This document shows positions 26,001 to 60,795 of a stretch of 64,000 nucleotides of DNA, one piece after another; position 1 is the stretch's first letter; each line of letters starts with the position of its first letter. The notes under the pieces are model-generated. The model had not been told where the DNA came from. It did no database searches and saw nothing but the letters and a program-made list of their open reading frames with translations. Made by a program: the position numbers and the translations under genes. Source of the stretch: Prevotella communis (GTDB lineage Bacteria > Bacteroidota > Bacteroidia > Bacteroidales > Bacteroidaceae); assembly GCF_022024175.1 (NCBI RefSeq), contig NZ_CP091794.1, positions 1,860,001 to 1,924,000 on the forward strand, written 5' to 3'.

Positions 26001-26062
26001 GCAAAGATACAAAATAATTCACAATTCATAATTCATAATTCATAATTATTTTCTACCTTTGC
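26001..26062. promoter_or_regulatory. divergent promoter cassette cstA / GHL10, copy 1
   Basis: A symmetric 62-bp module: minus-strand -7 TATCTTTGC (26001-26009), 6 bp, a heptamer array with five AATT cores 7 bp apart (26016-26047), 6 bp, then plus-strand -7 TACCTTTGC (26054-26062). The same module, 55 of 62 bases identical and without gaps, lies at 47151-47212. Confidence 0.85.
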
Positions 26063-26079: not shown

Positions 26080-27690
26080 ATGAAGAAATTTATCTGTTTT
26101 CTTATTCTAGTATGCGCCTTTATCGCAGTTCAGGCGCAATCTTCCAAGTACGAAGTCAGGGCCGTTTGGCTCACAACCATCGGTGGTATAGACTGGCCTC
26201 ACTCCTATCAGTCGGAAGCTCAGAAACGCGAACTCACCCAAATACTGGACCAGTTACAGAAAGCAGGTATCAATACCGTACTCGTACAGACACGCGTACG
26301 CGGTACGACCATTTATCCCTCGGCCATCGAACCATGGGACGGCTGCATCACGGGTACGCCTGGCCGCAAGGCTTCCTACGACCCCTTGCAACTGTGTATC
26401 GATGAGTGTCACAAGCGTGGCATGGAGTGCCATGCTTGGGTTGTAACCATCCCCGTTGGAAAATGGAACAAACTGGGTTGCAAGCAGTTGCGTCAGAAAT
26501 TCCCCAAACTAATCAAGAAGATTGGCGACGATGGTTACATGGATCCCGAACAGGGGCAGACTGGCGACTATATAGCCTCTATCTGCAAGGAGATTGTAAC
26601 CAACTATGATGTTGACGGCATTCACCTGGACTACATCCGCTATCCTGAGACATGGAAAATCAAAGTAAGTCGTCCGCAAGGCCGCGAGTACATTACCAGC
26701 ATCGTTCGTAAAATCAACAAGGCAGTTAAGACAGAGAAGCCATGGGTCAAACTGACTTGTTCTCCTATTGGAAAATATGATGACCTTCGCCGCTATCGTG
26801 CCGGTGGATGGAATGCCCGGACCACCGTATGCCAGGACGCACAAGCCTGGCTTCGCGACGGACTGATGGACGGACTGTTCCCGATGATGTATTTCCAGGG
26901 TAATAACTTTTTCCCCTTCGCAATCGACTGGCAGGAACAGAGTGCCGGACGTCCTGTAGTACCAGGTCTTGGCATCTATTTCCTCGACCCTCGCGAAGGC
27001 AAGTGGACACTCGACCAGGTGGTACGTCAGATGAACGTCAGTCGTCAACTGGGCATGGGACATTGCTTCTTCCGTTCCAAGTTCTTTACCGACAACGTGA
27101 AAGGCATCTACGACTTCACCGTGCGTTTCAACCAGACGCCAGCACTTGTACCACCCATGACATGGACCGGGCAGCCAGCCCCAACAGAACCCTCTCAACT
27201 TGCCCTGCATCATAACACCCTCTCCTGGCAGGCATCTACCGATAAGAGCGATGCTCCCTACATCTATTATAATATATATGCCAGCGAGGACTTCCCCGTA
27301 GATATCACAAAGGCTGAGAACCTGGTAGCCGCCAGAATCACCAAGACAAGTCTGCTGGTGCCAAATAATGGAAAGAACTATGCCGTCACAGCGATGAACC
27401 GCTATGGCATAGAGAGCACACCCGCCCAACTTCTGCTCAACGTGGGCAAGCGCTATGCAGCTCCCACTATCAGTAAGACCGACGGACGTCCTATCGCCCT
27501 GCCCGAAAAAGGTACCATCCTTGATGCAGAATTTGTAATCGTTGAAACCCTCGATGGACGCCAAGTAGCCCTACGCCCCTACTCTGCTTTCTTGTCGGTA
27601 GATGGTCTGCCTAACGGCATCTATCAGCTGCGTTCACTGGGCAAAAAAGGACGTAACCATCGCATCGGTTTCTTTAGCATCAAACGCTGA
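26080..27690 (+). CDS. secreted glycosyl hydrolase-like protein (GHL10/DUF187)
   Basis: A 536-aa protein with a signal peptide (MKKFICFLILVCAFIAVQAQ). The ATG at 26080 is chosen; the frame extends to a TTG inside the -7 box, which is not usable. The first ~330 residues match the GHL10 TIM-barrel family: VRAVWLTTIGGIDWPHSY, INTVLVQTRVRG, HAWVVTIPVGKW, VDGIHLDYIRYP. A fibronectin-III-like segment follows (about 355-440), then a short beta-rich end that may be a sorting or binding module. A cell-wall or glycan substrate is inferred from the family. Confidence 0.85.
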   Translation: MKKFICFLILVCAFIAVQAQSSKYEVRAVWLTTIGGIDWPHSYQSEAQKRELTQILDQLQKAGINTVLVQTRVRGTTIYPSAIEPWDGCITGTPGRKASYDPLQLCIDECHKRGMECHAWVVTIPVGKWNKLGCKQLRQKFPKLIKKIGDDGYMDPEQGQTGDYIASICKEIVTNYDVDGIHLDYIRYPETWKIKVSRPQGREYITSIVRKINKAVKTEKPWVKLTCSPIGKYDDLRRYRAGGWNARTTVCQDAQAWLRDGLMDGLFPMMYFQGNNFFPFAIDWQEQSAGRPVVPGLGIYFLDPREGKWTLDQVVRQMNVSRQLGMGHCFFRSKFFTDNVKGIYDFTVRFNQTPALVPPMTWTGQPAPTEPSQLALHHNTLSWQASTDKSDAPYIYYNIYASEDFPVDITKAENLVAARITKTSLLVPNNGKNYAVTAMNRYGIESTPAQLLLNVGKRYAAPTISKTDGRPIALPEKGTILDAEFVIVETLDGRQVALRPYSAFLSVDGLPNGIYQLRSLGKKGRNHRIGFFSIKR

Positions 27691-31241: not shown

Positions 31242-31333
31242 CTCTCCATTCTGATTCTGATACTGCTTTTGTTGCATAATAGGAATTTTTTATCAACCGT
31301 CTGCACTTTTTGTGTATGCGGCAGTAAATTTTT

Positions 31334-31376
31334 CAATTATCAATTATCAATTTTCAATTAAATTAGTTACCTTTGC
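31334..31376 (+). promoter_or_regulatory. four-heptamer promoter of pheS
   Basis: Four heptamers CAATTAT, CAATTAT, CAATTTT, CAATTAA (31334-31361), then 6 bp, then the -7 box TACCTTTGC (31368-31376). The start codon is at 31403. Same layout as at 26020, 47170 and 49082. Confidence 0.85.
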
Positions 31377-31402: not shown

Positions 31403-32461
31403 ATGATACTTGAAAAGATAAACGAACTCCTTCAGCAGGTTGACTCGCTGGAGGCAAAGAATGCTGAGGAAGTAGAACAGCTCCGACTGAAGTACCTGAG
31501 TAAGAATGGTGAACTGAACGAGCTGATGAAGGACTTCCGCAACGTGCCCGCAGAACAGAAGAAAGAGGTGGGCATGAAAATCAACGAACTGAAACAGCGC
31601 ATCACAGACCGTATCAACGCCCTGCGCGAGGCATGCACCACACAGGAGTCTGGCGACGAAGCCATCGACCTGACACGCACGCCCTACCCCATCCAGTTGG
31701 GTACACGCCACCCCCTGACCATTGTGACCAACGAGATTATCGATATCTTCAGTCGCATGGGATTCGTGCTGGCCGACGGTCCCGAGGTAGAGGACGACCT
31801 GCATGTGTTCACCCGTATGAACTTTGCTGCCGATCACCCCGCACGCGATATGCAGGACACCTTCTTCGTATCGCAGCATCCCAATGATGTGACCAAGAAT
31901 ATTCTGCTCCGCTCACACACCAGTAGCGTACAGGCTCGTGTGATGGAGAACATGCATACTGAGGACGGCAAACTGACCGGTCCCATCCGCGTAATCTGTC
32001 CGGGTCGCGTTTATCGTAACGAGGCTATCACAGCCCGTGCCCACTGTTTCTTCCATCAGGTAGAGGGTCTGTATATCGACAAGAACGTGTCGTTTACCGA
32101 CCTGAAGCAGGTACTGCTGTCGTTTGCCCGCGAGATGTTTGGCGCCGACACAAAGATTCGTCTGCGCCCATCTTACTTCCCATTCACTGAGCCCAGCGCA
32201 GAGATGGATATCTCTTGCTTCATCTGCGGTGGCGAGGGTTGCGGTTTCTGTAAGCACACCGGATGGGTAGAGATTCTGGGTTGTGGTATGGTGGATCCTA
32301 ACGTACTGGAGCAATGCGGTATCGACTCTAAGGAGTATAGCGGCTATGCCTTCGGTATGGGTGTAGAGCGTATCACCAACCTGAAATATCGTGTATCAGA
32401 CCTCCGTATGTTCTCTGAGAACGATACCCGTTTCCTGGAAGAATTCCAAGCAGCTGACTAA
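31403..32461 (+). CDS. pheS: phenylalanine-tRNA ligase alpha subunit
   Basis: A 352-aa class II aminoacyl-tRNA synthetase subunit. The N-terminal coiled coil (about 1-80) binds tRNA; the catalytic core has motif 2 around HCFFHQVEGLYID and motif 3 GMGVERITNLKY. A cysteine-rich insertion CFICGGEGCGFCKHTGW near residue 280 may bind zinc and is seen in many bacterial PheS. The ATG at 31403 is used; a frame extension upstream would start inside the -7 box. pheT is not adjacent. Confidence 0.95.
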   Translation: MILEKINELLQQVDSLEAKNAEEVEQLRLKYLSKNGELNELMKDFRNVPAEQKKEVGMKINELKQRITDRINALREACTTQESGDEAIDLTRTPYPIQLGTRHPLTIVTNEIIDIFSRMGFVLADGPEVEDDLHVFTRMNFAADHPARDMQDTFFVSQHPNDVTKNILLRSHTSSVQARVMENMHTEDGKLTGPIRVICPGRVYRNEAITARAHCFFHQVEGLYIDKNVSFTDLKQVLLSFAREMFGADTKIRLRPSYFPFTEPSAEMDISCFICGGEGCGFCKHTGWVEILGCGMVDPNVLEQCGIDSKEYSGYAFGMGVERITNLKYRVSDLRMFSENDTRFLEEFQAAD

Positions 32462-47150: not shown

Positions 47151-47212
47151 GCAAAGGTACAAATTAATTCATAATTCTTAATTCTTAATTCATAATTATT
47201 TCGTACCTTTGC
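47151..47212. promoter_or_regulatory. divergent promoter cassette, copy 2
   Basis: Minus-strand -7 TACCTTTGC (47151-47159), 6 bp, heptamer array with five AATT cores (47166-47197), 6 bp, plus-strand -7 TACCTTTGC (47204-47212). Aligns without gaps to 26001-26062 with 7 differences. Confidence 0.85.
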
Positions 47213-49035: not shown

Positions 49036-49081
49036 ATAATTGAGAGAAAAGATAAAAAAATGATGTGCGAAAGCAAATTTT

Positions 49082-49124
49082 CAATCATCAATTCTCAATT
49101 TTCAATTATTATTAGTAATTTTGC
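49082..49124 (+). promoter_or_regulatory. four-heptamer promoter of pgk
   Basis: Heptamers CAATCAT, CAATTCT, CAATTTT, CAATTAT (49082-49109), 6 bp, then -7 box TAATTTTGC (49116-49124). Layout identical to that of pheS. Confidence 0.85.
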
Positions 49125-49161: not shown

Positions 49162-50433
49162 ATGACAATCAACGAATTCAACTTTGCCGGTAAGAAGGCA
49201 ATCGTACGTGTAGATTTCAACGTACCCCTCGATGAGAATGGTAAGATCACAGACGACACCCGTATCCGCGGTGCCCTGCCTACCCTGAAGAAGATTCTGG
49301 CTGATGGTGGTGCTGTCATCATCATGAGCCACATGGGTAAGCCCAAAGGAAAGGTTGACATGAAGAAGAGTCTGGGTCAGATCCGCGAGGCTGTAGAGAA
49401 GGCTCTGGGTGTTCCCGTTGCTTTCGCTCCCGACTGCGCTAAGGCTGCTGATGCTGCCAAGGCTCTGAAGATGGGCGAGGCTCTGCTGCTCGAGAACCTG
49501 CGTTTCTATCCAGAGGAAGAGGGTAAGCCCGTAGGTATCGACAAGGAAGATCCAAAATACGACGAGGCTAAGAAGGCTATGAAGGCCAGCCAGAAGGAGT
49601 TCGCTAAGACCCTCGCTTCTTACGCTGACTGCTACGTGATGGATGCCTTCGGTACAGCTCACCGCAAGCACGCTTCTACCGCTGTTATCGCTGACTACTT
49701 CGACGCTAACAACAAGATGCTGGGTCTGCTGATGGAGAAGGAGGTTCAGGCTGTTGACGCCGTTCTCTCTAACATCAAGCGTCCTTTCGTTGCCATCATG
49801 GGTGGTTCTAAGGTATCTTCTAAGATTGGTATCATCGAGAACCTGCTTGGCAAGGTTGACAAGCTCATCCTCTGCGGTGGTATGACCTACACCTTCGCTA
49901 AGGCTCACAACGGCGAGATTGGTGACTCTATCGTTGAGCTCGACAAGCTGGATGTTGCTCTGGGTGTTGAGGAGCTCGCTAAGAAGAACGGCGTAGAGCT
50001 CGTTCTGGGCAGCGACTGCACAGCTACCAACGGTCTCGACTTCGGCACTATGACTGTGAAGGAAGGCGCAGAAATCATCACCTGCCCTGCCAACAAGGTT
50101 CCCGCTGGTTTCGAGGGTGTTGATGCAGGTCCTGAGAGCCAGAAGGCATTTGCAGAGGCTATCAAGGGTGCTAAGACTATTCTGTGGAACGGTCCTGCCG
50201 GTGTATTCGAGTGCGACGCCTTCACCGCTGGTTCACGTGCTATCGGTGACGCTATCGCCGAGGCTACAAAGAATGGTGCTTTCTCTCTGATTGGTGGTGG
50301 CGACTCTGTAGCTTGTGTCAACAAGTTCGGTCTCGCTGACCAGGTATCTTACATCTCTACTGGTGGTGGTGCTCTTCTCGAGGCCATCGAGGGTAAGGTG
50401 CTTCCCGGTGTAGCAGCTATCAAGGGTGAATAA
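49162..50433 (+). CDS. pgk: phosphoglycerate kinase
   Basis: A 423-aa glycolytic enzyme that moves phosphate from 1,3-bisphosphoglycerate to [57 protein letters not shown] and the C-terminal [14 protein letters not shown] and [14 protein letters not shown] are all conserved. The codons are strongly biased (many repeated GCT, AAG, GTT), as expected for a very highly expressed gene. Closed by a strong terminator. Confidence 0.97.
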
Positions 50434-52951: not shown

Positions 52952-53109
52952 CAGCCCTCTTCCATCTTCCATCTTACATCAGCCCTCAGCCATAGTCTAG
53001 CCATACTCCAGGCTTACCCTAGCCATACTCTAGCCATACTCTAGCCATACTCTAGCCTGCTTCGTGAGTGCTCCACGGAGCAGCCTAGGAGCAGCCTAGG
53101 AGCAGAGTG
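52952..53109. repeat. composite heptamer and 11-mer array
   Basis: First six heptamers (52952-52993: CAGCCCT, CTTCCAT, CTTCCAT, CTTACAT, CAGCCCT, CAGCCAT). Then an exact 11-bp array (52997-53051: CTAGCCATACT four times with one variant CCAGGCTTACC). Then GGAGCAGCCTA twice and GGAGCAGAGTG (53077-53109), also 11-bp steps. CTAGCC on the left and GGCTAG at 53127-53132 give partial dyad symmetry. No gene is seen between 52853 and 53210. Confidence 0.85.
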
Positions 53110-53197
53110 ATTGCTGCCTAAGAGCTGGCTAGGAGCTGATTTAGGTTGTCAGTTTTCTATCTCACGACTAGAATCTGTTGACAGGTTAATATGACAT

Positions 53198-60710: not shown

Positions 60711-60739
60711 CTCGAGTGGCGTTTTTGGGGGTATGAATA

Positions 60740-60795
60740 CATGAAACATTAAACATGAAACATTAAACATGAAACATTAAATATTAAACATTGAA
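60740..60795. repeat. heptamer array (CATGAAA/CATTAAA)
   Basis: Eight heptamers alternating CATGAAA and CATTAAA, the last two degraded (TATTAAA, CATTGAA). No -7 box stands in the register seen at the four heptamer promoters. Confidence 0.85.

Follow-up and report, generated by a model that had tools for sequence, protein, structure and literature searches.

A 64,000-nucleotide stretch of the Prevotella communis genome (positions 1860001-1924000 of NZ_CP091794.1, hereafter 'the window'; the genome is one contig of 3.55 Mb) holds predicted promoters in which a TAnnTTTG -7 box is preceded by an array of AATT motifs recurring about every 7 bp across the -33 region. On balance, we favour the reading that such arrays turn over in a slippage-like manner and persist in these promoters only in registers that preserve the promoter geometry. 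All promoters discussed here are predicted from the presence of TAnnTTTG boxes, and 'in genes' refers to predicted genes, called with a home-made gene finder. Our genome sample of 1.204 Mb, about a third of the genome, comprises the window and 57 evenly spaced 20-kb stretches (L051-L107). As for the organism, the PheS protein is closest to those of Prevotella, Prevotellaceae and Bacteroidales MAGs (at most 93% identity; Prevotella ruminicola KHT3, 88%) in a named collection that may omit this genome and its very near relatives.

AATT ladders at four predicted promoters

Heptamer arrays had been noted at four promoters of the window, and an array indeed stands at each of these places. All four sites carry the TAnnTTTG -7 box of Sigma-ABfr-type promoters, and at all four TTG is absent from -22/-23. 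Site 1 lies upstream of a GHL10-type gene (26080-27690): the forward-strand -7 box TACCTTTG (26054..26061) is accompanied by a divergent -7 box on the reverse strand (26002..26009; CAAAGATA on the forward strand, TATCTTTG on the reverse), and the ladder between them (26016..26047) consists of five AATTs, at 26016, 26023, 26030, 26037 and 26044, standing 6 bp from each -7 box. Site 3, upstream of a membrane-protein operon (from 47234), is built in the same way, with a forward-strand -7 box TACCTTTG (47204..47211), a divergent box on the reverse strand (47152..47159; CAAAGGTA on the forward strand) and five AATTs in 7-bp steps (47166..47197), again 6 bp from each box. At both sites the divergent boxes stand 44 bp apart, a distance made up of 6 bp, the 32-bp ladder and another 6 bp, which places the central AATT at the -33 place of both boxes. 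Outward-facing boxes around a shared core, the mark of a bidirectional promoter, are found at sites 1 and 3 only, and these two would be expected to fire in either direction.

Sites 2 and 4 are single promoters, at which no opposite-strand box is present at 44 bp. Site 2 precedes pheS (31403-32461): four AATTs in 7-bp steps (31335..31359) end 8 bp from the forward-strand -7 box TACCTTTG (31368..31375), and a GCG-rich head, GCGGCAGT (31318..31325, forward strand), lies 50 bp upstream of that box. Site 4 precedes pgk (49162-50433) and has a 7-bp AATT series with one step broken (AATC; 49076..49107), the final AATT being 8 bp from the forward-strand -7 box TAATTTTG (49116..49123), and a GCG-type head, GCGAAAGC (49067..49074, forward strand), 49 bp upstream of the box. 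The four sites thus fall into two gap classes, one of 6 bp (sites 1 and 3) and one of 8 bp (sites 2 and 4).

The window has 51 TAnnTTTG boxes. Six have a period-7 sequence upstream (23-28 of 37 self-matches), namely those of the four sites and, at sites 1 and 3, the boxes on the opposite strand; the remaining 45 score at most 15 of 37, which agrees with the original remark that other promoters of the window lack the array. The window is unusually rich in ladders: of the 9 that the sampled third has at promoters, 4 lie in it (we define a ladder at a box as at least three AATTs sharing one 7-bp phase, and take its gap to the -7 box modulo 7).

The shared register and the -33 element

The four sites had been proposed to share a register rather than a heptamer sequence, with C at -13, -20, -27 and -34 from the first T of TAnnTTTG. 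While C does stand at these positions at all four sites, only half of the proposal survives a wider tally: a shared register exists, as the phase of the AATT ladder, and C does not set it. We collected 35 array boxes from the sampled third of the genome and from the loci of two array patterns, counting as an upstream array at least 17 of 21 period-7 self-matches, and tallied the Cs by hand. A C series (at least three Cs in one phase) is seen at 21 of these boxes, and it includes -13 in 11 cases, four of which are the window sites, and misses it in 10; the other 14 boxes have no C series. Outside the window, 7 of 17 series include the -13 phase against about 3.9 expected if the phase were free, an excess that does not amount to a rule. 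Position -13 is often a C in any case, in 106 of 295 array-free and 7 of 20 array-bearing promoters.

The match in C at the four sites is thus quite probably a coincidence of two modules, the -13 position directly following an AATT in the gap-6 class and directly preceding one in the gap-8 class. The frequency of C at -13 in array-free promoters and the ten series out of phase speak for this account, the excess outside the window speaks against it, and it leaves the AATT phase unexplained; it bears on C alone, and we hold it alongside the reading favoured above. Nor does the chance of 1 in 343 originally attached to the four-site agreement stand, since it was calculated post hoc and pools the two gap classes.

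The AATT phase is far more regular. Modulo 7, the gap between ladder and -7 box is 6 at 18 boxes, 1 at 7 and 0 at 3, so that all 28 ladder boxes of this genome fall into three of the seven phases. Counted per ladder, 8 of the 12 ladders outside the window are at gap 6 (P = 5e-5 if the phase were free; tallied by hand, two mixed-phase ladders dropped). The expectation that heptad arrays hold a preferred register to TAnnTTTG is borne out by these counts. Among 52 boxes of other genomes, many of them orthologues of the four window promoters, the phases are 6 (33 boxes), 1 (8), 0 (3) and others (8), i.e. 44 of 52 in the same three phases. Loci gathered by array pattern, blind to promoters, gave 10 of 12 boxes in these phases, and unbiased stretches of other genomes yielded 3 boxes only, in three different phases. 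With the decoy box TTnnTTTG, 18 of 33 lattices were in one phase, which we take for a match to the ladder's own end (AATTATTTTG). As gain or loss of whole heptamers preserves phase by descent, part of the phase agreement is not independent.

What the ladder may replace is suggested by the promoters that have it. Of 315 AT-rich promoters, 20 have a period-7 sequence upstream, as compared to 0-1 for each of the periods 5, 6 and 8-12. TTG at -22/-23 before the first T of the box occurs in 2 of these 20 array promoters, a small set on which the deficit rests, versus 109 of 295 array-free AT-rich promoters (Fisher P = 0.015). According to passages of PMC9723704, TAnnTTTG spans -12 to -5 in Flavobacterium, and the middle AATT of the gap-6 class therefore covers -36 to -33. 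The suggestion that the array covers the -33 place and may replace the -33 box is consistent with these figures: since most promoters with a ladder have no -33 TTG, the ladder probably takes over from it. For the gap-8 class this substitution is less certain, as the TT there lies 1-2 bases further upstream than the usual TTG, and this displacement counts against the reading that we favour.

Compared to the Sigma-ABfr promoters of Bacteroidetes described in parts of PMC7366714 and PMC9723704 (-7 TAnnTTTG, -33 TTTG), the promoters analysed here have the -7 box and the AT-rich upstream region in common but mostly have no -33 TTG, its place being taken by a heptad ladder of AATT. Given the lack of a -33 TTTG or TTG, we file the four sites as a variant rather than as standard Sigma-ABfr members. 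In our favoured mechanism, RNA polymerase would read AATT in place of TTTG at -33, and arrays would persist in promoters only where their register puts TT near the -33 place and keeps the spacing. The relevant portion of PMC7366714 reports that no -33 element could be made out in F. johnsoniae; a register-conserved repeat at this elusive place makes what polymerase reads there directly testable.

The ladder also invites a different interpretation, as a docking site that is phased to the polymerase and bound by either the alpha C-terminal domain, in the manner of an UP element, or a minor-groove nucleoid protein with a liking for AATT. UP elements are AT-rich, lie upstream of the core promoter, and are marked by contact with the alpha C-terminal domain and by a gain in promoter strength. 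The ladder is likewise AT-rich and upstream of the core promoter, and it extends to about -50, as a docking site might; in the consensus of the gap-6 class (50 boxes) AATT is kept while the three letters in between vary, as they do among orthologues. Unlike an UP element, however, the ladder has a 7-bp repeat and starts 6-8 bp upstream of the -7 box, within the spacer, thus also overlying the -33 place and the spacer itself, and we judge a docking role unlikely.

Helical spacing of divergent -7 boxes

The 44-bp distance at sites 1 and 3 belongs to a wider series. In the sample, 72 pairs of the form GCAAAnnTA...TAnnTTTGC lie 30-130 bp apart, and their distances cluster near 43-44, 54, 63, 75, 84, 96 and 107 bp, with 43-44 bp as the commonest step. 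Among the periods tried (5-16 bp) the best is 10.5 bp (R 0.64; P 0.002 in 500 trials with the distances randomly shifted by up to 8 bp). The helical phasing persists (R 0.66) in the 64 pairs that have no period-7 stretch, and the 8 that do have one give R 0.56 (P 0.08), so the arrays can be rejected as its cause. Generic CAAA...TTTG pairs give R 0.09 at 10.5 bp (n=2988), and no period was detected for same-direction (n=13) and convergent (n=23) pairs at 30-130 bp, both small controls; three altered-box controls returned 0-1 pairs each and are uninformative. Convergent TAnnTTTG/CAAAnnTA pairs taken over 30-200 bp in the sampled third (n=42) show a peak at 6.5 bp (P 0.002), and the controls as a whole are mixed.

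To follow the spacing among relatives, we used two sets of orthologous loci (L208-L287 and L308-L337). For the GHL10 gene, for which 30 loci were taken from 59 matching genomes, 25 of the 30 are paired, with spacings of 22 bp (1 locus), 25 (1), 32-33 (12), 42-44 (9), 52 (1) and 75 bp (1), and R is 0.87. For pheS, 36 of 80 loci are paired at 21-91 bp, with a mode of 43-44 bp and R 0.72; omission of the 42-45 bp class leaves 17 loci with R 0.49 (P 0.018). Orthologues are related by descent, and P values from these spacings are therefore too small. Between orthologues, the spacing at the GHL10 and pheS promoters mostly changes in full turns of the helix. In genome G016 the strict pairs give R 0.44 (n=13, P 0.09) and the relaxed pairs R 0.35 (n=36, P 0.023), neither being significant over all periods; pooled pairs from outside this genome, pheS excluded, give R 0.47 (n=26) with P 0.0065 at 10.5 bp, rising to 0.07 when the best period overall is taken. 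Other genomes thus show a similar phase with a weaker effect, which we regard as partial replication. The boxes may keep to one face of the helix by virtue of shared curvature, of polymerases sitting on one side, or of a bridging protein.

Bidirectional, pseudo-symmetric promoters have been described in E. coli, according to parts of PMC12825309, and sites 1 and 3, as putative bidirectional promoters, resemble them in having outward-facing boxes around a near-symmetric core. They differ in that the -33 place would be the part held in common, with 44 bp between the boxes and a 10.5-bp series of distances; our box-spacing terms found no match in the text of PMC12825309. We tentatively propose, as something possible rather than probable, that two linked rules replace a fixed sequence in Prevotella-type bacteria: a phase-locked AATT ladder, made of many different heptamers, at -33, and a one-face, 10.5-bp spacing of divergent boxes, under which orthologous promoters would grow or shrink by full turns of the helix. 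Neither the ladder nor the 10.5-bp rule turned up in the titles and abstract openings of open-access literature on heptamer repeats, promoters and phasing, which is not proof of absence. If start-site maps confirm it, the helical spacing would be a genome-wide rule, and one that a motif search would miss because it lies in distances.

Genome-wide spread and turnover of heptamer arrays

Promoter ladders are part of a much larger population of repeats. Counting tandem arrays of at least four copies, the 1.204 Mb contain 116 arrays of period 7, belonging to many families, versus 1-14 for each of the periods 5, 6 and 8-12; period 4 gave 34, in a shorter and laxer comparison. The arrays lie mostly (79 of 116) outside predicted genes: 53 are flanked by co-directional genes, 14 by divergent and 11 by convergent ones, one is at the end of a stretch and 37 are in genes. 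Some span nearly the whole gap from a stop codon to the next start codon. The sample contains 30 AATT lattices, 9 of them at promoters.

The view of arrays as promoter elements as such is not supported, only 17 of 78 non-coding arrays adjoining a -7 box and orthologous promoters without an array being found for pheS (genome G006) and pgk (G265). The narrower notion of promoter-only elements is likewise rejected, as most arrays are away from promoters and some are in frame within genes. Arrays are nevertheless over-represented beside -7 boxes, since placing them at random within the same spacers would give 6.9 rather than 17 of 78 (P = 0.0008).

Turnover between species is seen at pheS, GHL10 and pgk. 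For one array pattern, 77 of 201 genomes of the family have matches, the highest counts exceeding 100; its count is 110 in this genome versus 0-5 in the 12 same-genus genomes of our draw. Among 30 pheS orthologues, four (in G007, G013, G020 and G022) carry other heptamers within the 42-44 bp of divergent boxes, and the one in G006 keeps the 44-bp divergent spacing with no array. GHL10 orthologues have different heptamers at conserved box spacing. At pgk (20 of 56 matching genomes), the arrays are of AATTNTC, AATGTTC or TATGAAC type, or there is none, as in the close relative G265; box spacing is kept among these orthologues too. As judged by these sequences, heptamer arrays turn over fast between species, and we infer that they arise and turn over by slippage-like copying of whole units. 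Fast turnover of heptamers in promoters and genes would supply both regulatory and protein variation.

The same abundance, diversity of families and presence in predicted genes would be expected if the arrays were neutral repeats that spread and slip throughout the genome, abut -7 boxes by chance, inherit their phase through copying of whole units and have no role in transcription. The patchy occurrence among genomes of the family and the array-free pgk promoter of G265 agree with such an account. However, separate ladders agree in phase outside the window, arrays are enriched beside -7 boxes, and where a ladder stands the -33 TTG tends to be lost; a wholly neutral account therefore strikes us as somewhat unlikely, and we keep to a ladder whose register is retained by promoter geometry.

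The GHL10 promoter shows a further kind of change. Its 44-bp core (window 26010-26053) matches that of G265 (L309) at 43 of 44 positions when reversed and at 30 of 44 directly, the flanks being in direct order. The core in G246 also fits better reversed (40 of 44 versus 30 of 44), and the core here may thus be the flipped one. Inversion of the segment between divergent -7 boxes at their inverted repeats, via recombination or template switching, would produce such a pattern. Against this, the site 3 cores of G265 and G274, the only two compared out of 30 loci, are in the same orientation as here, and inverting a segment that has a promoter at either end would make little difference. An invertible core, which would bear on the origin of one core and not on the role of the ladder, seems to us very improbable.

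Other explanations for the arrays at large fared poorly. We rejected the idea that units are 7 bases long in order to place stop codons in all three frames: such stops are found on at least one strand in 92 of 116 arrays, as compared to 77.1 expected with heptamer columns permuted; arrays in genes mostly put the stops on the other strand (26 of 37), and the idea is kept as a weak lead. A single mobile-element source was rejected as well. The candidate head, GC[GA]G[TCA]AGCA followed by a T-run, occurs 16 times in the sample, six of these as three facing pairs, and goes mainly with the TTCACTN family, which leaves the other arrays unexplained by one mobile element. The facing pairs, with head GCGG(T/C)AGCAAATTTTTCAC, lie near 1028972/1029003, 2411630/2411658 and 2525151/2525170 (L068, L089 and L091), have TTCACTN heptamers outward, and their arms could pair as a long hairpin.

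The STRR repeats of cyanobacteria are heptamer direct repeats. Direct repeats of the heptamer TAACTGA are reported, in passages of PMC4679880, for Beggiatoaceae, cyanobacteria and five Bacteroidetes. The arrays of P. communis resemble TAACTGA and STRR repeats in being tandem 7-bp units, mostly intergenic and patchy among species, and differ in having other heptamers, many families per genome, some members in genes and a subset phased with -7 boxes. The TAACTGA unit is absent among the listed arrays of our sample.

Arrays in genes (L103:13571-14662, L105:3989-5116, L105:16423-18672 and others) encode peptides such as NSQLSIV and SSLFTLPSSL. In the epimerase-like gene L103:13571-14662 the in-frame array corresponds to a 15-residue insert relative to PDB 5u4q, and in a GDP-mannose dehydratase the array lies in a stretch that differs among the solved relatives shown; for a GH51-like protein the comparison gave no clear array insert. 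At four places (L022, L023, L024 and L029) one four-unit heptamer array stands just before what looks, by eye, like a 5S rRNA sequence. Arrays of ACATTAA/ACATGAA (window 60739-60792; L078 near 1631337; L068 near 1038406) have similar flanks (TTCACTCGAGTG...GGGGGTAT), as if lying within a longer repeated unit. Repeats of another length are found in the window at 52988-53138, where three tandem arrays with different 11-bp units adjoin. Finally, the stretches of genome G188 (L178-L187) contain 39 period-7 arrays in 200 kb, some of them telomere-like (CCCTAAA), and the heptamers there drift stepwise along an array.
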